From Pedosphaera sp. (lineage in GTDB: Bacteria > Verrucomicrobiota > Verrucomicrobiia > Limisphaerales > Pedosphaeraceae), in contig JAQGPA010000111.1 of assembly GCA_028293325.1 (NCBI GenBank), positions 1 to 63,720 of the forward strand: a DNA stretch of 63,720 nt, read 5' to 3'. Position 1 is the first letter of the stretch, and each line of letters starts with the position of its first letter. A program made the position numbers and the translations under genes. The notes beneath the pieces are model-generated. The model had not been told where the DNA came from and ran no database searches. It worked only from the letters and a program-made list of their open reading frames with translations. Below, piece after piece: positions 54,569 through 63,407 of this stretch.

Positions 54569-54596
54569 GGCTGGAGTTCAGCGCAATTATTTGCAA

Positions 54597-54623
54597 GACG
54601 CCGTTCGCGGCGTCTTTTTTTTT
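54597..54623 (+). terminator. Rho-independent terminator of the ATP synthase operon
   Basis: GACGCCG-TTCG-CGGCGTC, a perfect 7-bp stem with a stable UUCG tetraloop, followed by nine T. It lies 28 bases past the atpC stop and marks the end of the housekeeping block. Confidence 0.95.
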
Positions 54624-54646
54624 GCATAGAGCAATTCCATAAATGC

Positions 54647-54786
54647 TGTAGCGCGGCGGAAAAGTTATTGGGAAAGCGGTCTTTTTGACTTTTGGCTTCG
54701 TTTCGGCTCGGTCACAGGCCACCTTGGGCATGCTCCCTCGCCAAAGCCTCGCCAAAAGTCAAAAATCCTCGCTCCGCCGCGCTACA
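54647..54786. repeat. 140-bp element with two nested inverted repeats
   Basis: Outer arms TGTAGCGCGGCGGA (54647-54660) and its exact complement (54773-54786); inner arms TTTTTGACTTTTGGC (54683-54697) and its exact complement (54751-54765). Together 29 perfectly paired bases frame a ~53-base GC-rich core. The shape fits a MITE-like or BIME-like mobile repeat or a structured RNA. The plus-strand open frame 54685-55254 running through it has no coding character and is rejected. Confidence 0.7.
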
Positions 54787-54916
54787 TCATTTCTGTCAAT
54801 GCTCCAAGCTTTCGTCAGCTTTGGAAAAATTAAGACAGGGAAGGGGAGGTGGCGTTGCCCGGCACTTTTGCGGGGGCTGAGCAGCAGGAGACAGCAGAAA
54901 ACGGGTCCTGGTTTAA

Positions 54917-55324: not shown

Positions 55325-55376
55325 TTTGACTAATCAAAGATTTCCTACTTTTATATATTGACTTACTTTGACTAGT
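55325..55376 (+). promoter_or_regulatory. Possible VapB operator/promoter
   Basis: Three copies of TTGACT (starting about 55326, 55358 and 55368) occur within 50 bases. The first is part of the inverted repeat TTTGACTAATCAAA (55325-55338). The copies lie 20-70 bases before the vapB start and could be antitoxin binding sites and/or -35 boxes. No ideal -10 spacing was found. Confidence 0.35.
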
Positions 55377-55393
55377 TAATAGGATTATTATGT

Positions 55394-55678
55394 ATGAGTA
55401 AAACAAACAAAACGGATACGATTACATTTACGGTCAAGGGACAGGTGGTAATCCCCCGGTGGCTGCGGAAGGAATTTGATATTGAGGAGGGGACGCGCGC
55501 CATTGTGACGACCACGCCGGATGGCATCCTTTTGAAGCCGGTCACACGGCATACGATTGCCCGGATGCATGGCATTTTGAAACGGAAACCGGGAGAGAAG
55601 CCGCTGGCTGAGGAATGGGCGGAACACAAGAAACGGGAAATTGAATTGGAAGAACGCCATGGCCGCAAAGGTTCTTGA
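55394..55678 (+). CDS. vapB: AbrB/SpoVT-type antitoxin (VapB-like)
   Basis: 94 aa. An N-terminal swapped-hairpin DNA-binding domain reads ITFTVKGQVVIPRWLRKEFDIEEG, then TRAIVTTTPDGILLKPV. The C-terminal tail is charged (AEEWAEHKKREIELEERHG) and should bind and block the toxin. It overlaps the toxin gene by 20 bases, the usual arrangement for type II pairs. Probably represses its own operon. Confidence 0.88.
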   Translation: MSKTNKTDTITFTVKGQVVIPRWLRKEFDIEEGTRAIVTTTPDGILLKPVTRHTIARMHGILKRKPGEKPLAEEWAEHKKREIELEERHGRKGS

Positions 55679-56060
55679 TAGCTACGCGCTGCTCGCATTT
55701 TTGCGGGGCGAAGAGGGCGGGGAGACGGTCCGGGATTTGCTGGAAAAGGCCGGCGAACGGAACGTCCCACTGCATATGACCGAGGTGAATTATGCTGAGG
55801 TCAAATACGTTATCATCCGCAAGGATGGCGCGGAGGCCTGGAAAAGAATAGCTGGCGAGTTGCCGGTGCTCCCGATAGAGTTCCATCCCGCAACCCGTTC
55901 CTTGGCCGATTTAGCGGCTGAGTACAAGGCGCATTACAAACTCAGCCTAGCCGACGCCTTCGCTGCCGCGATGGCGAAGGAGAAAAAAGCTGAGTTAGTT
56001 ACTGGGGATCGGGAATTTAAGGAACTGGAAAAGGAAATTAAGGTGGTATGGATTTCTTAA
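55659..56060 (+). CDS. vapC: PIN-domain toxin (VapC-like ribonuclease)
   Basis: 133 aa from the ATG at 55659, inside the antitoxin 3' end. The PIN acidic residues are visible: Asp in VLDSYALLAFLRGEEG, Glu in MTEVNYAEVKY, Asp in KLSLADAFAAAMAKE and Asp in LVTGDREFKEL. Cleaves RNA (often tRNA or rRNA) with Mg/Mn when freed from VapB. Length and order are normal. It marks the left side of the accessory region. Confidence 0.9.
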   Translation: MAAKVLDSYALLAFLRGEEGGETVRDLLEKAGERNVPLHMTEVNYAEVKYVIIRKDGAEAWKRIAGELPVLPIEFHPATRSLADLAAEYKAHYKLSLADAFAAAMAKEKKAELVTGDREFKELEKEIKVVWIS

Positions 56061-56157: not shown

Positions 56158-58095
56158 ATGGACTGGGAATTTTATGAACGGGGTGAGGCTGGAGATGCCT
56201 ATGCGGCGTCTCAATCGCGAATCATTATAGAAGGAGACCATACGATATCTCCATTTGAGATATTTGTTCGCGAAGTACTCCAAAATTCGCTTGATGCTGC
56301 GCTGAGCCAAGCAAAGGTGAAGGTCCGCTTTAAGTTGCATACCATTCGGAACCCGGGGCCGAAGCAGAATTTCCTAAATGCAATTGGTTGGCCGGCTTTG
56401 AAAGAGCGAGTCGCTGCGGCAAACCGAATTCGTTTAAATCGGCAGGAGCCGCCTGAATTTGGCAATCCAGAGACCTTGGCCGGGACTGGCATTCAGGTAC
56501 TAGAGATTTCTGAAATAGGCACAATAGGATTGGTTGGCCCTGAAGCTGTCAGAAGCGAACAGGATGAGCGTCGCCTGCCTGGGGAATCCCCCAAAGCATA
56601 TATCGCCTTGACTCGGGATGACGCCCGGCGGGAGAAACAAGGTTTAGGATCCGGTGGCACTTATGGGTTGGGCAAGGCTGTTTTATGGTCTGCCTCCCAA
56701 ATCCAAACGGTTGTTTTCTTTTCGAGATTAGCAAACTCACCAGATGAGACAACACACCGTGCAGCCGCCCAAGCGAGGCTTGGCCCTCATTTTCTTAATA
56801 ACCATCCGTACCGCGGCCTTGGCTATGGTGGCGATAAACGTGACGGATGGTGTCGGCCCATTCGGAATGAAAAAGCTCAAGAGCTGGCCACCAAACTCAT
56901 GATCAATCGCCGCGCGGACGCTTCGGAAACGGGCACGACAATTATCATACCGTTTTGGAATCAGCCTGATAGTGATGTTGATGACGTGGTTCCAACCCAT
57001 GTTTTGCTGGCACGATATGCTGCACGTTTTTTCTGGCCTGCAATCGTAGATGGTCGCCTCGAAGTAATCGCTGAATCAGATACTGGGTCCGTCGAGGAAG
57101 CGGATGACCACCTTCCACATTATCAACCTTTCATTGATCTTTATCAGCGAATGAAGCAAGGCACTCGTGGCCCACAGGATGCATTGCCGGAAAAAATTCG
57201 AATGGTTGTTCCACAAGGGCCACCACCGCGAACTGATTCAGAAACCAAAACTTTTATTCACGCGAACATGTGCGATGTCACCAAAGAGGGCGAAGTTAGG
57301 GAGGATTTTAAGTGTAAGGTTGCCTGCATACGCGGCCAGGGAATGGTTGTTGGTTATGCTAAAATGACGGGAAATACCTTGGTGAAACCGTTCGTTGGGC
57401 TGGCACTTGGTGGCCGTGCTGGTGATGTGTCAAACGCTGGAGTCCGTGGCGACGTTCTTTTGGGATTTTCCGAATATGTAACCCATACCAAGTGGGACGA
57501 AAAATCCGCCAGCTTGCGTCATTGGCCAGATGCCCGTCCAGCCATCCGGGAACTATTGAAGCAACTGAGGGATTATTTTGAACGAAACAGTAGAGTTGAA
57601 CAGCCCGAGACAACCAGTGATCTGAGTCCACTTGAAGAAGGGCTTAGGTTTCCCGGCATCGGCCCGGATGGGCCACCGCCCCCACCGCCTGACGGCAAGC
57701 CCCAGCTACACCTGCAATATTTTCGCCGCGCAGAAAACCAGTATAACTTTGAAATTCGAACAAGAATTAAGGCCAACAGCAAGCCAATCAGCTTAGATTT
57801 GTGGGTCGAAGCCGGTTTGGAAACGGGAAGTGCTTCAAAGGGAGACAGATTTTTGCTCGAGAATATTCGCACCATTCCGACAAATCTAAAGACGGACCAA
57901 TTAACCAATCGCAAGTTTCGAATTACCATTCCCACTCTGGGTTCAGAAACCCAAGTAAAAATTGTTGGAACCACTCAAAAAATAATACCAGAAGTGTTCG
58001 CGGTAAGTGAGGGGCTTTTCAAGGCGACGATTGTAAAGCCTAATGAACTGGAGGAGGCCTCGCACGAAACAATAGGAGAGGATTCATATGCTTAA
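56158..58095 (+). CDS. GHKL-type ATPase (MutL/MORC/Hsp90-like) of a defence-type operon
   Basis: 645 aa, preceded by a strong AGGAGG ribosome site. The N-terminal ~300 residues carry the GHKL nucleotide-binding motifs. The N-box is FVREVLQNSLDAAL (E39, N43). A degenerate G1 box, LEISEIGTIGLVG (119-126), has Glu in place of the usual Asp in DxGxG. The G2 lid is GSGGTYGLGKAVLW (164-177). The middle (SETGTTIIIPFW, HVLLARYAARFFWPAI) resembles the transducer part of MutL/MORC relatives. A Pro-rich linker (GPPPPPPDG) separates a C-terminal ~130-aa beta-rich domain. No nuclease motif is visible. Related ATPases are known from MutL-homologue restriction-modification clusters. The next gene overlaps by 8 bases. 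Codon use is more A/T-rich than in the core genes, suggesting transfer. Confidence 0.8.
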   Translation: MDWEFYERGEAGDAYAASQSRIIIEGDHTISPFEIFVREVLQNSLDAALSQAKVKVRFKLHTIRNPGPKQNFLNAIGWPALKERVAAANRIRLNRQEPPEFGNPETLAGTGIQVLEISEIGTIGLVGPEAVRSEQDERRLPGESPKAYIALTRDDARREKQGLGSGGTYGLGKAVLWSASQIQTVVFFSRLANSPDETTHRAAAQARLGPHFLNNHPYRGLGYGGDKRDGWCRPIRNEKAQELATKLMINRRADASETGTTIIIPFWNQPDSDVDDVVPTHVLLARYAARFFWPAIVDGRLEVIAESDTGSVEEADDHLPHYQPFIDLYQRMKQGTRGPQDALPEKIRMVVPQGPPPRTDSETKTFIHANMCDVTKEGEVREDFKCKVACIRGQGMVVGYAKMTGNTLVKPFVGLALGGRAGDVSNAGVRGDVLLGFSEYVTHTKWDEKSASLRHWPDARPAIRELLKQLRDYFERNSRVEQPETTSDLSPLEEGLRFPGIGPDGPPPPPPDGKPQLHLQYFRRAENQYNFEIRTRIKANSKPISLDLWVEAGLETGSASKGDRFLLENIRTIPTNLKTDQLTNRKFRITIPTLGSETQVKIVGTTQKIIPEVFAVSEGLFKATIVKPNELEEASHETIGEDSYA

Positions 58096-59038
58096 AGCAA
58101 AGGCTTGGCCATATCCTGTGTTTGAGAATGTTTCGTTTGGCACGCCACAGGCAAAATTTGGCGACATCGATTTGAAAATGGATTTAACCAGCAAAGGTTG
58201 GGTTATTACTGGAGGCCAACTAAAGGACCGGTCAAGTGGGATAATTTCGCTTTCTTTCCAAATCAAAACGCCATCATCTGAAGTTGCAGAAGCCGTGTTC
58301 GGCGCACCAGACAAAACCGCCATCTCCTGTGGGGCGCGCCTTCTCTGTAAGGAATCGAAGTTCAGAAAATTCTTTCCCGCTGATAACCACCAGTCAGTGA
58401 AGCTTGAAATCCCCTTGGAGAGATTGCGAGGGGTTGCTGAAATAGTGCCGATGTTTGTTTCTGCGAACCAAGCATCTTCCGCCAATGGGATAATCATCCA
58501 ACAAGGCTCGGTCTTGGGCTTAACCGCAAAGCCGATTTTCCTGACTATCGATGAAGATTGGACGGGGGAAGCTATTCCGGTCGACTGGCTAGGCTTTGCA
58601 GAAAACAATTTGCCCGCAGAGTCCCTAATGCACATTGAGATTTCGGGAGGAAGCCAAGTCCCGAAAGTCTGGTTAAACTTAAAATACAAAAGCAAGCTTG
58701 AGCATGTATTATTAAGAAAAGGTGACAGCTCACCGGCGGGTTTGGCGGGTGCTGCCATGAGGGAGTTTTTTTGGGTCCATGTATGGGAAAAAGTTCTGAT
58801 TTGGGCGCTGAAAGAGGCGAGTGCTGAAAATGAAGACTGGCCTGCAACCAGAATCGCAGATTACTGGCGCTCAAAATTCAACGAAAACGGGTTTGAAATG
58901 CCCGTGACAGATCAATTGGATGCAGATGCGTTGAATGAATTATCATCCAAAATACAACATTGTCTATGCAGCGCACAGAAACTTTCACAGATAAATAACA
59001 TACTGCGGTTCCAACCGGACAGCCCAAGCCTATTATGA
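58088..59038 (+). CDS. Unknown protein, middle gene of the GHKL operon
   Basis: 316 aa, not recognised. Ribosome site GGAGAGGA lies just before the ATG. The first ~200 residues look beta-rich (FGDIDLKMDLTSKGWVITGG, IISLSFQIKT, VKLEIPLERLRGVAEIVPMF, LMHIEISGG, VWLNLKYKSK). The last ~110 are helical and Trp-rich (AAMREFFWVHVWEKVLIWALKE, WPATRIADYWRSKFNENGF). No membrane segment or catalytic motif was seen. It overlaps the ATPase gene (8 bases) and the next gene (ATGA), so the three products are probably made in fixed ratio and may form a complex. Confidence 0.75.
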   Translation: MLKAKAWPYPVFENVSFGTPQAKFGDIDLKMDLTSKGWVITGGQLKDRSSGIISLSFQIKTPSSEVAEAVFGAPDKTAISCGARLLCKESKFRKFFPADNHQSVKLEIPLERLRGVAEIVPMFVSANQASSANGIIIQQGSVLGLTAKPIFLTIDEDWTGEAIPVDWLGFAENNLPAESLMHIEISGGSQVPKVWLNLKYKSKLEHVLLRKGDSSPAGLAGAAMREFFWVHVWEKVLIWALKEASAENEDWPATRIADYWRSKFNENGFEMPVTDQLDADALNELSSKIQHCLCSAQKLSQINNILRFQPDSPSLL

Positions 59039-59790
59039 TGCAAAGACTGACCAATCGAAATCATTTGAAAAAGCTCGACTGGCTTTCCCAAGTCGCCCAG
59101 CGCGATTGGCGAGAAGTAGAGCCGCTTCAAGCTGACGGGCTCAAAATTCAGCAATTAGATGTTGCTGCCAATTTGCAAATGGGTTTAGTAATTCAATACA
59201 TTAAGGATGCTTTTGAAAACATCAACCCCATGCTTCAAGACCCTCCATCTAGGGATGAACGCGTTGGCAGCGATGGTCAAATGGCTGTGGCGATTCATAA
59301 GGCTTTGAACGGGATGACTCCACGAGAAGCAAGCGATGCCGATTTATGGGCTTACCTGGCTTGTATGGGATGTCCCAGATATGTGCGCTGGCGATGGAAT
59401 ACGCAAGATGTAGCACCTTTGTGGACTAGATTCGCTGGAAATATTCGTCGGAACGCGCTTTCCAGGCTCTGGTGGTGGGCTGAAATCACACATGATCCAA
59501 CCAAACTTATTGATAATCCTCAGCGTTATGTAGTTACTAAAGACGTACAGAATCGACAATCACTCATGCTCTGGTTCATCGATTGCGCTTTTTCAGGCCA
59601 CGCCTCCATTGTTTACCACCTTAGCGCATTACAAAAGAGCCACTCATTAAATGATACTGAACAAAAAGCCGTTTGCAGAAGCGTTAATCGCCTTGCTCGA
59701 GTTGTTTGTTTAGACTCTTTGCCCCATTCGGCCGAAGTTGAAGCTTTGTGCGACCGAGCTTTACAAATAGGCCAGCTCTTGGCTGCATAG
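59035..59790 (+). CDS. DUF6339-like protein, third gene of the GHKL operon
   Basis: 251 aa. The central part reads ASDADLWAYLACMGCPRYVRW, then NIRRNALSRLWWWAEITHD and QSLMLWFIDCAFSGHASIV. From memory this follows the pattern of DUF6339 proteins (ASD-x2-LWAYL ... Y-x-R-x-RW ... RLWW ... TYD ... ERSFSR-like). I could not check this by search. All-helical and soluble, no catalytic motif seen. The start overlaps the previous stop (ATGA). A 61-base gap then leads to the methyltransferase gene in the same direction. Confidence 0.65.
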   Translation: MMQRLTNRNHLKKLDWLSQVAQRDWREVEPLQADGLKIQQLDVAANLQMGLVIQYIKDAFENINPMLQDPPSRDERVGSDGQMAVAIHKALNGMTPREASDADLWAYLACMGCPRYVRWRWNTQDVAPLWTRFAGNIRRNALSRLWWWAEITHDPTKLIDNPQRYVVTKDVQNRQSLMLWFIDCAFSGHASIVYHLSALQKSHSLNDTEQKAVCRSVNRLARVVCLDSLPHSAEVEALCDRALQIGQLLAA

Positions 59791-59851
59791 AAACGGCCGG
59801 CTAGTTTTTTTGTTGTCGCAATTTTCACCTAGGCTGTAGCCTGGATGAAGA

Positions 59852-61384
59852 ATGGCAACTCCAATCATTGATTTGTTTGCCGGTCCCGGTGGACTGGGTG
59901 AAGGTTTTTCGTCGCTTCTGGATGCGGGTGGCGCATCAGTCTTCGAGATTGCCCTTTCCATCGAAAAAGATCCCATTGCCCATAAGACCCTTGAACTCAG
60001 AAGCTTCTATCGCCAGTTCATTCATCAGAAAAAAGAGATCCCGGAACTTTATTACGAATATCTCCGCGGAAAAACTTCTCGAAAACAACTTTTCAAAGCA
60101 TTCGCACCAGAGGCTAAAGCAGCGGCAGGTGAGGCTTGGTGTGCTGAACTTGGAAGTGATGCCCTAACGGATCGGTTCCTTGACCAAACGATTGCTGCTG
60201 CGCTGCAGGGGCGGAAAAGTTGGGTTCTAATTGGTGGTCCACCTTGCCAAGCCTACTCTTTAGTCGGGCGATCTCGAATGATGGGAGACAAGGATTTCGA
60301 GGAAGACCATAGACATTTCCTTTATCGCCAATATCTAAGAATCATCTCGGAGCACCGGCCGCCTGTGTTTGTCATGGAAAATGTAAAAGGTCTCCTGTCC
60401 GCCAAGGTTAAAGGGCAGAAGATGTTCGACAAAATCAGAAGCGATTTAGAATGCCCCCCCCGCGCGCTTGGCTCTCAGAATGGAAAATTAGGAGACCTTT
60501 CATACCGATTGATCTCCTTGGTAAAACAACATGGGGATTTACCCGGAAAATATGAACCGGAAGACTATGTAGTTCATTCAGAAAATTACGGGATCCCACA
60601 AACGCGACACCGTATAATCTTTCTGGGCATTCGTAATGACATCGTAGCGACACCTCGTATTCTAAAGGAACATGATGCAGTAAACATAGAAACCGCCATT
60701 TGTGATCTGCCGGTTCTGCGGAGTGGCTTATCAAAGGAAAAAGATTCCCCCGAGAACTGGCTTCAATGGATCAGAGAAGCAGCAACAGCATCTTGGTTAG
60801 AGGACAAGAAGTTGGATAAGGATCTGCGGCGAGCATTGCAGATCGCGGCTCAGACTGCAAGAATTGGGCTTAATCGTGGAGGAGAATCTGTAGAAGGCGA
60901 ATCAGCGCCAACATTTGCCCAAAGTTGGTTTCGTGATCCGCGCTTGAAATGCTTTTGTAACCATTCTACACGAAGTCATATTCGTGAGGATTTACATCGA
61001 TATTTGTTTGTAGCCGCGTTCGCCAATGTGCGCGGTCAATCTCCAAGCTTGGAGAATTTTCCGAAGGCACTCTTGCCGAATCACAAAAATGTTGGCGAAG
61101 CGCTAACCGGAACAAAATTCAACGATCGATTCCGAGTACAAACCACAGGACGCCCTTCAACTACAATTACATCGCACATTTCAAAGGACGGGCACTACTT
61201 TATTCATTATGATCCGACACAATGCCGCAGTCTGACGGTGCGTGAAGCGGCGCGGCTGCAAACGTTTCCAGACAATTACTTCTTTGAAGGGCCGCGCACT
61301 CAGCAATACCATCAAGTCGGCAATGCGGTGCCGCCGTTGCTTGCGAAACAGATCGCGGAAATCGTGGCTGATTTGATCAGCTAA
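59852..61384 (+). CDS. DNA cytosine-5 methyltransferase
   Basis: 510 aa. All key motifs of C5 methyltransferases are present: motif I IDLFAGPGGLGEGF (residues 6-19), motif IV GGPPCQAYS with the catalytic Cys132, motif VI ENVKG (Glu176), motif VIII QTRHR (250-254), motif IX RSLTVREAARLQTFPDNY (459-476) and motif X QVGNAVPP (488-495). It is larger than HhaI-type enzymes because of a helical insert between motifs II and IV (about 50-120) and a long target-recognition region (about 260-430). The specificity cannot be read from sequence. It follows the GHKL operon after 61 bases and should protect host DNA in a restriction-like system; the matching nuclease candidate is the Vsr-like gene at 62874-63407. 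Confidence 0.93.
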   Translation: MATPIIDLFAGPGGLGEGFSSLLDAGGASVFEIALSIEKDPIAHKTLELRSFYRQFIHQKKEIPELYYEYLRGKTSRKQLFKAFAPEAKAAAGEAWCAELGSDALTDRFLDQTIAAALQGRKSWVLIGGPPCQAYSLVGRSRMMGDKDFEEDHRHFLYRQYLRIISEHRPPVFVMENVKGLLSAKVKGQKMFDKIRSDLECPPRALGSQNGKLGDLSYRLISLVKQHGDLPGKYEPEDYVVHSENYGIPQTRHRIIFLGIRNDIVATPRILKEHDAVNIETAICDLPVLRSGLSKEKDSPENWLQWIREAATASWLEDKKLDKDLRRALQIAAQTARIGLNRGGESVEGESAPTFAQSWFRDPRLKCFCNHSTRSHIREDLHRYLFVAAFANVRGQSPSLENFPKALLPNHKNVGEALTGTKFNDRFRVQTTGRPSTTITSHISKDGHYFIHYDPTQCRSLTVREAARLQTFPDNYFFEGPRTQQYHQVGNAVPPLLAKQIAEIVADLIS

Positions 61385-61413
61385 AGACCCATTGGCGCAA
61401 GGCAGCAGGCAAG

Positions 61414-61434
61414 CGCTAACCTAGCTAGTTAGCG
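61414..61434. terminator. Hairpin after the methyltransferase gene
   Basis: CGCTAAC and GTTAGCG form a perfect 7-bp stem with loop CTAGCTA, 30 bases past the stop. No T-run follows on either strand, so it is only a weak terminator candidate. Confidence 0.3.
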
Positions 61435-61496
61435 AAAGCGAACACCAAGAATTCTTGCTAGCCGGGAACAAAAGTGCTAAATTAACTTCCAGAAGT

Positions 61497-61572
61497 TGGT
61501 GGAACCGGCGGGGTTTGGACCCGCATTTCCGGCTTTTCAGGGCGGTGTTTTTGCCGATTAAACTACGGTCCC
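61497..61572 (-). tRNA. tRNA-Phe(GAA)-like gene, partly degenerate
   Basis: A 76-base cloverleaf on the minus strand with encoded CCA. The acceptor strands GGGACCG and CGGTTCC pair throughout, with one G-U. The D stem is GTTT/AAAC, with GG in the loop. The anticodon loop CTGAAAA gives anticodon GAA. The T stem GCGGG/CCCGC is perfect. Two departures are notable: the anticodon stem CCGCC/GCCGG has a C-C mismatch at the 30-40 pair, and the T loop is TCCAAAC, with C where nearly all tRNAs have T (pseudouridine 55). It could be a decaying second copy, a mobile-island tRNA, or a specialised variant. It lies between the methyltransferase and the winged-helix gene. Confidence 0.75.
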
Positions 61573-61716
61573 GAGTGGGCCTCTTGGCGGACATGATCAT
61601 CTTGCGAGGATTCATTCATGTCCGCCTTATTTCTTTCGGCGCTTTACGTTTAGGCGTCACGTAAGCGCTGACTCTCTATTTTCATAAATAGTAGTGAACC
61701 TTCATTGGTTAAGAAG

Positions 61717-62187
61717 TTAATGTTTCACTTCGGCCACTCGGTAAACGTTCGGTTTGGCACCAATTCGTTTGCGCTCAACGACTAGCACACCCTTGTCTAC
61801 CAAATCCGAAAGTGGCGAACTGATATGCTTTGTCTCCTTTAGATTAAATTCCGGATACGCCGACTGAAGCGCGTTCAAGAGCTGGACGCTGTCAAAGCCC
61901 CCGGGTTGCTTCTTGGCCATCTCCTCCACCGCCCCAATCAACGATGAACGATGCGATATCCTGACGGCATGAGGTGGCACTGGACGCTTGCGCGACGCAT
62001 TAAAAGTCCACTTTTTATTCTCTTTAAAAGATGGATTATCAATTATATCCGAAGCTGGAGGTACGCTGCCCTCCAAAAGGATATCGACTGCTTTCAACTT
62101 TCGCACGAGCTGGGCTTTCTCAATCTCAATGGCTTCAATCTTAGCGTTAAGTTTGTTCCTGTGCTCAATAAGATCTTCAACTTTCAT
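61717..62187 (-). CDS. Small coiled-coil and winged-helix-like protein, possible regulator
   Basis: 156 aa from the ATG at 62187; the frame continues upstream to 62481 through a repeat array and is not believable there. An N-terminal coiled coil (LIEHRNKLNAKIEAIEIEKA), a polar linker, then a C-terminal domain reading SLIGAVEEMAKKQPGGFDSV, LLNALQSAYPEFNLKE and SSPLSDLVDKGVLVVERKRI, which looks like a winged helix-turn-helix. The start codon lies two bases from a perfect 16-bp palindrome in a dense CCWGG array, so self-regulation is plausible. It is divergent from the small hypothetical/vsr genes. No family name can be given. Confidence 0.65.
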   Translation of the reverse strand: MKVEDLIEHRNKLNAKIEAIEIEKAQLVRKLKAVDILLEGSVPPASDIIDNPSFKENKKWTFNASRKRPVPPHAVRISHRSSLIGAVEEMAKKQPGGFDSVQLLNALQSAYPEFNLKETKHISSPLSDLVDKGVLVVERKRIGAKPNVYRVAEVKH

Positions 62188-62189
62188 GC

Positions 62190-62291
62190 CCAGGTTATAA
62201 CCTGGCCACCTGGACAACGCAACACATTTTACAAAAACTTTTCGACACGCCAGGTAGAAGCACGCCAGGTAGCTTACACCTGGCAACCTGG
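62190..62291. promoter_or_regulatory. Array of seven CCAGGT/ACCTGG (CCWGG) sites, candidate operator
   Basis: Within 102 bases the hexamer CCAGGT or its complement occurs seven times: 62190-62195, 62200-62205, 62208-62213, 62250-62255, 62265-62270, 62278-62283 and 62286-62291. The first two form the perfect palindrome CCAGGTTATAACCTGG. Three more CCTGG lie at 62343, 62474 and 62493. Chance would give well under one hexamer here. The array fills the region between the winged-helix gene (minus) and the hypothetical/vsr genes (plus). Confidence 0.7.
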
Positions 62292-62509
62292 TAGCGTCCA
62301 GAAAATCGGCTTGACGGACATGCCAAATAATCTGTATAAAAGCCTGGAGGGCTGCATGAGATAGAGGATGCCGCTTGTAAGTGCTACGAGGAAATCTTTT
62401 GGCGAAAAAACTTGCACCTTTACAGGCGTCTGCACCGGTACGGCGACCAAATCGAGCAAAGCTGAATTTTCTTCCTGGCAAAGTGAATTTCCCCTGGTAG
62501 CGTTTTGGT
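62292..62509. other. Rest of the divergent intergenic region
   Basis: About 220 bases between the CCWGG array and the small hypothetical gene. Two open frames cross it on opposite strands (to 62580 and from 62585), but neither has recognisable content. The promoter of the hypothetical/vsr pair should lie here. Confidence 0.35.
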
Positions 62510-62869
62510 ATGAGAAGCTATATCTACATTCCAAACTCACTACGGGCGGCGGGGCGGCATGTGCGCTTCGCGCTTTCTGAACCACTCGAACTTCTGCCGA
62601 AGGAAGCCTTTATTCGTGCTTGGTGCTCGGTCAGCTATCTGTTTCCGGGGCTGCATCCTGATGGTTTTGATTCTACCGATAGCGGTTGGACGCGTGTGCT
62701 CAAGCGTTTCGCTGCCGAGGCGTGGCGGCGGTCGGATGCCGGACAGCTCACGGATAACGAACTTTACTGCTATCAGGCTTGCAAGGCACGGATAAGCCAA
62801 GGATGGCAGATTGAGGAACGTCAAAATAAGCGCAACCAACAACTACTGGCCACGTCTTTCGCCGATTGA
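62510..62869 (+). CDS. Hypothetical protein upstream of vsr
   Basis: 119 aa, not recognised. It has ordinary soluble-protein composition: SEPLELLPKEAFIRAWCSVS, YLFPGLHPDGFDSTDSGWTR, then LKRFAAEAWRRSDAGQLTDN and a basic, Gln-rich end. Its stop is 4 bases before the Vsr-like ATG, so the two are very likely co-transcribed and coupled. A role in the restriction or repair function is inferred from position only. Confidence 0.55.
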   Translation: MRSYIYIPNSLRAAGRHVRFALSEPLELLPKEAFIRAWCSVSYLFPGLHPDGFDSTDSGWTRVLKRFAAEAWRRSDAGQLTDNELYCYQACKARISQGWQIEERQNKRNQQLLATSFAD

Positions 62870-62873
62870 GCAA

Positions 62874-63407
62874 ATGCCTGACATATTCACCAAACAGAAG
62901 CGGTCGGAGGTGATGGCGAAGATTCGGGGGCGGGGGAATAAGGAAACCGAACTGGCGTTGATGGCGATTTTTCGGCGGTACAAAATCACGGGGTGGCGGC
63001 GGCATCGGCTTTTGAAATTTGGAATTCGGAGTGCGAAGCGCGGAATTAAAAAGGCAGGGAAGGGCAAGGTTGGCGGCGGTCTTAGACGCGTCGGAACGGT
63101 GCGGCCGGATTTTGTGTTTGCGGCGGAGCGGGTGGCGGTGTTCGTGGATGGTTGTTTCTGGCATGCGTGCAAGAAGCATTCGAATTTGCCGGTGGGTAAT
63201 CGGGCGTTTTGGCGGAAGAAGCTGGCGGGGAATGTGGCGCGGGATCGGTTGGTGAATCGGGCGTTGCGCAAATTGGGTTGGAGGGTGGTGCGGGTTTGGG
63301 AGCATGAGTTGCGCGAGCCGGGGAAAGTCGTTAGGAAAATTCGGAGTGCGGAATTTTTAACCACGGATTCACACCGATTAACACGGATTCCGGAGGGGAA
63401 TGTTTGA
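62874..63407 (+). CDS. vsr: Vsr-type (very short patch repair) endonuclease with an in-frame repeat insertion
   Basis: About 177 aa from the ATG at 62874. Vsr cuts next to T-G mismatches created by deamination of 5-methylcytosine; related enzymes act as restriction nucleases. Landmarks: TKQKRSEVMAKIRGRGNKET, RPDFVFAAERVAVFVDGCFW with HACKKH following, NRAFWRKKLAGNVARDR and LGWRVVRVWEHEL. The catalytic Asp (RPDF) and the His after FW are present. Between GWRRH and RPDFVF, where relatives have about six residues, there are ~30 basic/Gly residues encoded by an intergenic-type repeat (63018-63047 and following). The C-terminal residues after RKIRS are also encoded by repeats. It may still fold, as the insert lies in a loop, but activity is uncertain. 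Confidence 0.85.
   Translation: MPDIFTKQKRSEVMAKIRGRGNKETELALMAIFRRYKITGWRRHRLLKFGIRSAKRGIKKAGKGKVGGGLRRVGTVRPDFVFAAERVAVFVDGCFWHACKKHSNLPVGNRAFWRKKLAGNVARDRLVNRALRKLGWRVVRVWEHELREPGKVVRKIRSAEFLTTDSHRLTRIPEGNV
63018..63047. repeat. Short dispersed repeat inside vsr
   Basis: GGAATTCGGAGTGCGAAGCG followed by CGGAATT. A close copy (AATTCGGAGTGCGGAATTT) lies at 63338-63356 at the 3' end of the same gene. This type of repeat is normally intergenic. Confidence 0.65.
63338..63389. repeat. Dispersed repeats forming the vsr 3' end
   Basis: The AATTCGGAGTGCGGAATT repeat (63338-63355) is directly followed by ACCACGGATTCACACCGATT and AACACGGATT (63360-63389), related to the CGCAGAT repeat at 55255-55284. 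The frame reads through both to a stop at 63407. Confidence 0.6.

Follow-up and report, generated by a model that had tools for sequence, protein, structure and literature searches.

A conserved A-B-C core with a predicted paraMORC2-type ATPase in a VapBC-methyltransferase-Vsr cassette of Pedosphaera sp., a candidate anti-phage restriction system

The locus and its genes

We analysed a window that is an entire contig of Pedosphaera sp. (JAQGPA010000111.1, 63,720 nt; assembly GCA_028293325.1; Verrucomicrobiota, Limisphaerales, Pedosphaeraceae). Its right-hand end carries an eight-gene cassette in which a toxin-antitoxin pair (vapB and vapC), a GHKL ATPase gene (A), two partner genes (B and C), a C5-cytosine DNA methyltransferase gene (M), a small gene (H119) and a gene for a Vsr-type endonuclease lie in this order on the forward strand; the rightward view stops shortly past Vsr. 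The finding on which our account is built is that A, B and C are conserved together, and we tentatively favour a role for the cassette in restricting phages. The features of the locus are as follows (aa, amino acids; match values follow the family or model name).

55358..55385, + strand: promoter-like site before vapB, TTGACT-16-TAGGAT (promoter scan)
55394..55678, + strand: vapB-like antitoxin of the MazE/AbrB type (PF04014, MazE_antitoxin, 6.9e-07)
55659..56060, + strand: vapC-like PIN toxin (ATG at 55659, the mechanical open reading frame running from 55641; PF01850, 3.4e-20)
56158..58095, + strand: A, 645-aa GHKL ATPase, assigned by its motifs to the paraMORC2 type (PADLOC model PDC-M33A, 6.3e-17)
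58088..59038, + strand: B, 316 aa, predicted immunoglobulin-like beta-sandwich plus helical domain (structural model; weak match to PDC-M33B)
59035..59790, + strand: C, DUF6339 protein, predicted all-helical (PF19866, 1.3e-17; PDC-M33C, 7.2e-16)
59852..61384, + strand: M, C5-cytosine DNA methyltransferase, DrmMII-like (PF00145, 4.3e-47; best PADLOC model DrmMII, 1.2e-95)
61497..61572, - strand: tRNA-Phe (gaa), within the cassette here
61717..62187, - strand: 156-aa gene, winged-helix-like by eye (open reading frame extending to 62481 with a TTG start)
62510..62869, + strand: H119, small gene (55% identical gene in the related locus L233)
62876..63407, + strand: Vsr-type endonuclease, about 28 residues being inserted in frame (PF03852, 1.7e-12; TIGR00632)

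Within the window A and B overlap by 8 nt and B and C by 4 nt, and a gap of 61 nt separates C from M. The genes named in a preliminary description of this DNA, which was made without database searches, all lie where that description had placed them; the family matches of C, M, Vsr and VapBC agree with it, and both residues that it had singled out (E39 in A, C132 in M) are confirmed. It was also right that the island is richer in A/T than its flanks, with a G+C of 0.47-0.50 across 56-62 kb vs 0.52-0.59 in the other 2-kb steps listed. It had overlooked the tRNA-Phe between M and the right-hand genes, and its winged-helix-like gene (the 156-aa minus-strand gene) has no family match above cut-off. 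For Vsr, whose mechanical start is TTG 62811, alignment with relatives makes ATG 62876 the probable start.

Protein A and its family

Inspection of the A sequence identified the N-box (E39 and N43), G2 and G3 motifs. Among 102 aligned A proteins, E39, Q42 and N43 are each present in 100 (the other two having gaps), G124 in 101, G170 and G172 in all 102 and K173 in 94. An ExxxH motif (E439 and H443) is found in every one of the 102, and a conserved basic residue, R392 (100/102), is compatible with an S5-fold domain; judging from its place, the stretch that holds ExxxH would be this S5 domain. Iyer, Abhiman and Aravind (2008, PMC2292703; here and below, the part of the paper available to us) set the paraMORC2 family apart by an ExxxH motif in the later part of the S5 domain. 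By these motifs, A is a paraMORC2-type GHKL ATPase. We rejected its assignment to a housekeeping family, as A has no Pfam or NCBIfam match and is spread patchily across genomes.

Specifically, A was found in 7 of 387 genomes of the phylum and in 7 of 196 of the order (the genome studied here being counted in both), while it was absent from the one listed genus mate and from six other members of the family. Besides its own, the seven A-positive genomes of the order include one with a close A (68% identical) and five with distant ones. In the A tree, the A of the window and that of L002 (a locus from Opitutia) form a deep clade of their own, L233 being outside the tree.

At least two A genes were present in 18 of 82 loci. 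Two A genes compared per multi-A locus are 20-43% identical, and in the tree the haloarchaeal copies fall in different clades and the cyanobacterial copies in very distant ones. These multiple A genes hint at paired, diverged modules. L008, L010, L014, L042, L049, L061, L065 and L074 each hold two or three diverged A genes, which frequently lie on opposite strands. In a metagenome protein, P0060, the first part of A is fused to a C5 methyltransferase, by deletion or as an assembly chimera, and the fusion suggests that the two genes probably shared one locus.

The A-B-C core is a conserved unit

A scan seeded with A, with one genome per species, yielded 73 loci, to which the window and 19 wider genome stretches were added. 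With three repeat contigs left out, C was found within the next three same-strand genes after A for 76 of the 90 evaluable A genes (79 of 93 with the repeats), and the three-gene core of the preliminary description thus holds together as a unit. The slot between A and C in these 76 cases is filled by a gene with the B profile (59), by a member of the related-looking sets B2 and B3 (10) or by an unlabelled gene (7). Overlaps account for 110 of the 153 junctions (82 of 1-8 nt and 28 longer), gaps of 0-10 nt for another 42, and one gap is longer.

When C was used as the seed, we obtained 36 places outside five named genomes, some of them in genomes also found via A. B lies directly upstream in 28 of the 36, and a gene of 278-320 aa occupies the slot in 5 more; the three exceptions are a sub-cut-off hit with a stop (L090), a place with no B labelled (L099) and one where B is present and C is unlabelled (L113). 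In wide stretches around C hits, A was upstream in 14 of 15, the exception being the same sub-cut-off hit in L090. A DUF6339-seeded search found the protein in 7 of 374 genomes of the phylum (6 above cut-off), in 16 of 242 from the haloarchaeal class and in 3 of 349 from a proteobacterial phylum; the genome on which each search was centred is counted in. Conservation of A-B-C as a unit extends over haloarchaea and many phyla of bacteria.

The model of B (predicted local distance difference test, pLDDT, 84.0; predicted template modelling score, pTM, 0.61) has a beta-sandwich at approximately residues 8-156 and helices at 198-307, and that of C (pLDDT 93.3) is all-helical but for two short strands. 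The preliminary description had proposed profile searches (HHpred/Foldseek) for the 316-aa and 251-aa proteins: no convincing fold match was obtained for the modelled B or C, and the family search identified C as PF19866 (DUF6339). Besides M1, the invariant residues of B are R93, F170 and N197, which do not look like those of a nuclease site; C has a single invariant residue, R120, with W105 and R144 near-invariant. No recognised nuclease family was detected in A, B or C. In one locus the gene that immediately follows A (L062:10754-12427) encodes 557 aa and matches the C profile; it is perhaps a B-C fusion.

The cassette in relatives and the place of VapBC

The cassette recurs in two relatives. 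L233, from another family of the same order (A 68% identical), has vapB-vapC-A-B-C-M-H119-Vsr on one strand, and L002, from another order of the same class (A 64%), has vapB-vapC-A-B-C-M-Vsr on one strand, with no counterpart of H119 found. No tRNA was called in either cassette, and the 156-aa minus-strand gene has no counterpart in them. Since the cassette is co-linear in L002 and L233, we consider VapBC, and also Vsr beyond the tRNA-Phe, to be part of it. The three genes sampled around the cassette of L233 encode a lipase maturation factor, an S15 peptidase and a PQQ-repeat protein, and the cassette therefore looks self-contained. M and H119 are 1125 nt apart in the window, compared with 44 nt in L233; between H119 and Vsr there are 6 nt. 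The tRNA-Phe of the window looks intact and, with the minus-strand gene, interrupts a cassette that is continuous in L233. The 4-13 kb examined after atpC in 12 relatives that have atpD-atpC contain no match to VapBC, A, B, C, M, H119 or Vsr, and no tRNA-Phe was called there. Integration at the 3' end of the tRNA-Phe was rejected, as the window has no attL-like repeat and a tRNA was found in only 4 of 44 other loci.

The VapC proteins of both relatives have a PIN domain. A profile made from the three VapC proteins matched 6 places in 93 loci, each by A or a truncated A (one of them being a repeat contig), and none of 22 control stretches. Further sites of this profile in Verrucomicrobiota lie 890 nt before A (L134), overlapping the called start of A (L137) and before a truncated A (L136). 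In the last case a VapC-like gene, a 263-aa truncated A and Vsr stand in a row (L136:6271-8552) in a genome of the same class, perhaps as a decayed cassette. A block around TTGACTTACTTTG ahead of vapB is common to the window and L002, with poorer agreement in L233. L020, L039, L045 and L055 share a small gene that lies upstream of A (in L039 at 568-861). It is weakly DUF4145-like (5.4e-4, below cut-off), and a profile of the four has matches in ten loci overall, L134 among them.

VapBC would probably serve as a back-up toxin or an addiction module. Alternatively, VapC itself could be the effector: the ATPase, acting as a clamp, would sense phage DNA and free the PIN RNase toxin, leading to abortive infection. 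In the window, L002 and L233 alike, vapBC directly precedes A in the same orientation, behind a partly conserved block, which speaks for this scenario, as do the profile sites near A in three further loci of the phylum. However, the profile had no match in the other loci, a gap of 97 nt separates vapC from A here, and PIN genes are common elsewhere in the two relatives (29 and 8 in all, with 2 in the genome studied here), and we consider VapC an unlikely effector.

Methyltransferases and nucleases around the core

M carries the motifs FAGPGG, GGPPCQ (with C132), ENV, QTRHR and GNAVPP; as a DrmMII-like enzyme it might recognise CCWGG. Of 82 loci, 57 have a match to the C5 methyltransferase profile no more than 5 kb from A, and 20 have Vsr no more than 6 kb from it, vs 0 of 22 random 20-kb stretches for either; because the loci are mutually non-independent, the Fisher p-values for such comparisons serve only as a guide. 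We rejected chance neighbourhood, since A, B, C, M, Vsr, Mza and DrmA were all absent from the 22 random stretches. In six proteobacterial loci (L025, L045, L048, L055, L058 and L063) C, M and Vsr lie on one strand.

Other cores have different nuclease genes as neighbours, although restriction nucleases are rarer near the core than C5 methyltransferases. Some are found near MzaB, MzaC, MzaD and AIPR/MzaE genes, and some, including haloarchaeal ones, near DrmA (by PADLOC for L060 and by similarity for others) together with PLD genes, so that the helicases MzaC and DrmA both occur in the neighbourhood of some cores. GmrSD, NERD and PLD nucleases are further neighbours, as is a pair consisting of an AAA protein and a DUF2357-PDDEXK_7 protein (PDC-M26), which we take to resemble McrBC. 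Two haloarchaeal families also recur near the triads, one of about 258 aa (L008:4623-5399, 13 loci) and one of about 508 aa (L006:2040-3566, 10 loci); the one member scanned per family had no Pfam or PADLOC match. It is conceivable, as a bolder proposal, that A-B-C is a nuclease-agnostic DNA-licensing machine, a MORC-type clamp with a loader or reader pair of its own from two uncharacterised protein families, which plugs into at least six unrelated nucleases (Vsr, MZA, DISARM, GmrSD, McrBC-like and AIPR) in bacteria and archaea, often as two diverged copies that perhaps form a heteromer, and of which the VapBC-Vsr cassette would be the smallest self-contained form.

In E. coli, Dcm and Vsr act together with MutL, a housekeeping protein that aids Vsr and clamps DNA. 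Our locus likewise combines a C5 methyltransferase, Vsr and a MutL-like ATPase, but its ATPase is a linked gene with two partners of its own. By the same logic, the core could be a module for DNA repair or chromosome maintenance (a MutL-like mismatch system linked to 5-methylcytosine) rather than for defence, and Iyer and colleagues leave room for the recruitment of a few paraMORCs into mismatch repair (PMC2292703). Given the patchy spread, the proximity to MZA, DrmA, GmrSD, McrBC-like and AIPR genes, the lower G+C than that of the flanks and the missing cassette after atpC in the 12 relatives, we regard such a role as very improbable.

A proposed mechanism and the role of Vsr

We tentatively favour the reading that the cassette serves to restrict phages, and that A, a predicted ATP-gated DNA clamp, would license the cutting of DNA that lacks M methylation. 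A would dimerise around DNA on binding ATP, as MutL, Hsp90 and MORC proteins do, while B and C may load A or read the state of the DNA. Host DNA marked by M would be spared, and a nuclease supplied by the locus would cut or nick the clamped DNA: here, by prediction, Vsr and elsewhere the products of MZA, DISARM-like, GmrSD, McrBC-like or AIPR genes. The preliminary description had likewise suggested a reduced or distinct system in which the ATPase complex licenses Vsr-like cleavage of unmethylated or modified DNA; the core and its methyltransferase company support this in part, with Vsr as a possible cutter of the clamped DNA.

Several findings weigh against this proposal. The match of the window's B to PDC-M33B is weak (0.027), the B-slot families may not all be homologous, and no M lies within 5 kb of A in 25 of 82 loci (several of them short contigs). 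Within the window, the 1125 nt holding the tRNA-Phe and the minus-strand gene separate M from H119-Vsr, and Vsr itself scores 92.0 bits against TIGR00632, below the cut-off of 97.85, its insert splitting the family match. Moreover, 100 of 249 genomes of the phylum have Vsr, which is therefore common there in any case. It lies within 400 nt of M for 10 of the 22 M genes right after C and for 11 of the 42 others, and in a count that excluded GmrSD, McrBC-like and AIPR genes it was no rarer in loci with MZA or DrmA (6/21) than in those without (18/61). No anti-correlation was seen, and we rejected the idea that Vsr takes the place of MZA or DrmA as the effector.

Vsr accompanies the methyltransferase instead of standing in for MZA or DrmA genes, so its role may be confined to the repair of deaminated 5-methylcytosine; it tracks M wherever M lies and so does not behave like an exchangeable effector. 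On this account A-B-C-M defends, Vsr merely repairs T:G mismatches arising from 5-methylcytosine deamination, and either the clamp blocks phage DNA or an effector encoded elsewhere cuts it. In the first case the clamp would act as BREX-type systems apparently do, halting replication with no DNA cleavage. The coexistence of Vsr with MZA and DrmA genes, its frequency in the phylum and a second C5 methyltransferase gene with its own Vsr, in divergent arrangement, in the same genome (contig C153:20482-21805, L239) all fit a repair role. By contrast, Vsr is the sole recognised DNA nuclease in the L233 and L002 cassettes, and the position of other cores beside restriction nucleases suggests that the core needs one. 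As Vsr follows M whether or not M adjoins C, and is as frequent with MZA or DrmA as without, we keep the repair account as a serious, if rather unlikely, alternative.

Comparison with known systems

Eukaryotic MORCs silence transposons, and how MORC-type ATPases pick the DNA on which they act is a question still asked. With eight genes, among them those for a methyltransferase and a small nuclease, the cassette is compact enough for transfer to a laboratory strain and would, if the restriction reading is correct, allow direct tests of how the clamp depends on ATP, on methylation and on the two partner proteins; such work would also give DUF6339 a function. For the prokaryotic relatives of MORC, a role in restriction was predicted in 2008 (PMC2292703). 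Our locus resembles the paraMORC2 proteins of that study in its GHKL motifs, the ExxxH late in the ATPase region, the sporadic spread and the methylase, Vsr and helicase neighbours; it differs in the fixed A-B-C triad, VapBC and the present cassette, none of which is described in the part of the paper available to us.

The window's A and C also match models of PDC-M33, a candidate system of 2023 in PADLOC-DB 2.0.0. Its models cover three proteins, with the methyltransferase, VapBC and Vsr not among them as far as seen. Elsewhere, PDC-M33A matches all four A proteins scanned and PDC-M33C one of two C proteins, while PDC-M33B found no match among the B-slot proteins of L002, L008, L025 and L061 (at 0.001) or of L048, L067 and L010 (at 0.01). 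PDC systems are ‘guilt-by-embedding’ candidates, most of them awaiting tests (PMC12988326, the part available to us). The open-licence literature searched contains no mention of ‘PDC-M33’ or ‘DUF6339’ and no paper linking PDC-M33 with paraMORC2, and ‘morc’ and ‘ghkl’ do not occur in the part of PMC12458937 available to us. The ATPase family has thus been known since 2008 and the candidate triad since 2023 (PADLOC); new here are the VapBC-Vsr cassette, the link between PDC-M33 and paraMORC2 and the range of nuclease neighbours.

Two other defence systems offer partial parallels. The likeness to DISARM lies in M, which is nearest to DrmMII, and in the DrmA-like and PLD genes that adjoin some haloarchaeal cores; among seven window proteins scanned there was no match to DrmA, DrmB or DrmC, M being the only one with a DISARM hit. 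VcSduA, a Shedu protein with a paraMORC3-like GHKL ATPase, loses phage defence when an ATPase residue is changed (PMC12137116, the part available to us), and a GHKL ATPase is thus needed to restrict phage there; its nuclease (DUF4263) is fused within the same protein, whereas here it would be separate. DUF4263 had no Pfam match in nine window proteins.

Edges of the island and an insert in Vsr

To the left, a terminator-like hairpin (54595-54616) lies downstream of the atp operon. Just past it and left of VapBC are nested inverted repeats with arms of 37 and 39 nt (54624-54809), the longest in the window. Of the VapBC pair and repeats that the preliminary description had put at the island's edge, VapBC and these inverted repeats are there, while no convincing direct repeats bracket the island in the window. 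The promoter-like site before vapB is weak on its own, as the scan gave 7 such sites vs 7.8 expected from shuffling.

The Vsr proteins of L002 and L136 have different inserts at the loop that carries the insert in the window's Vsr. The DNA of the latter (63020-63100) includes TTCGGAGTGCG, which is part of a dispersed repeat; a longer form of this repeat, TTCGGAGTGCGGAATT, has 16 copies in the genome vs 0 for the reversed control.

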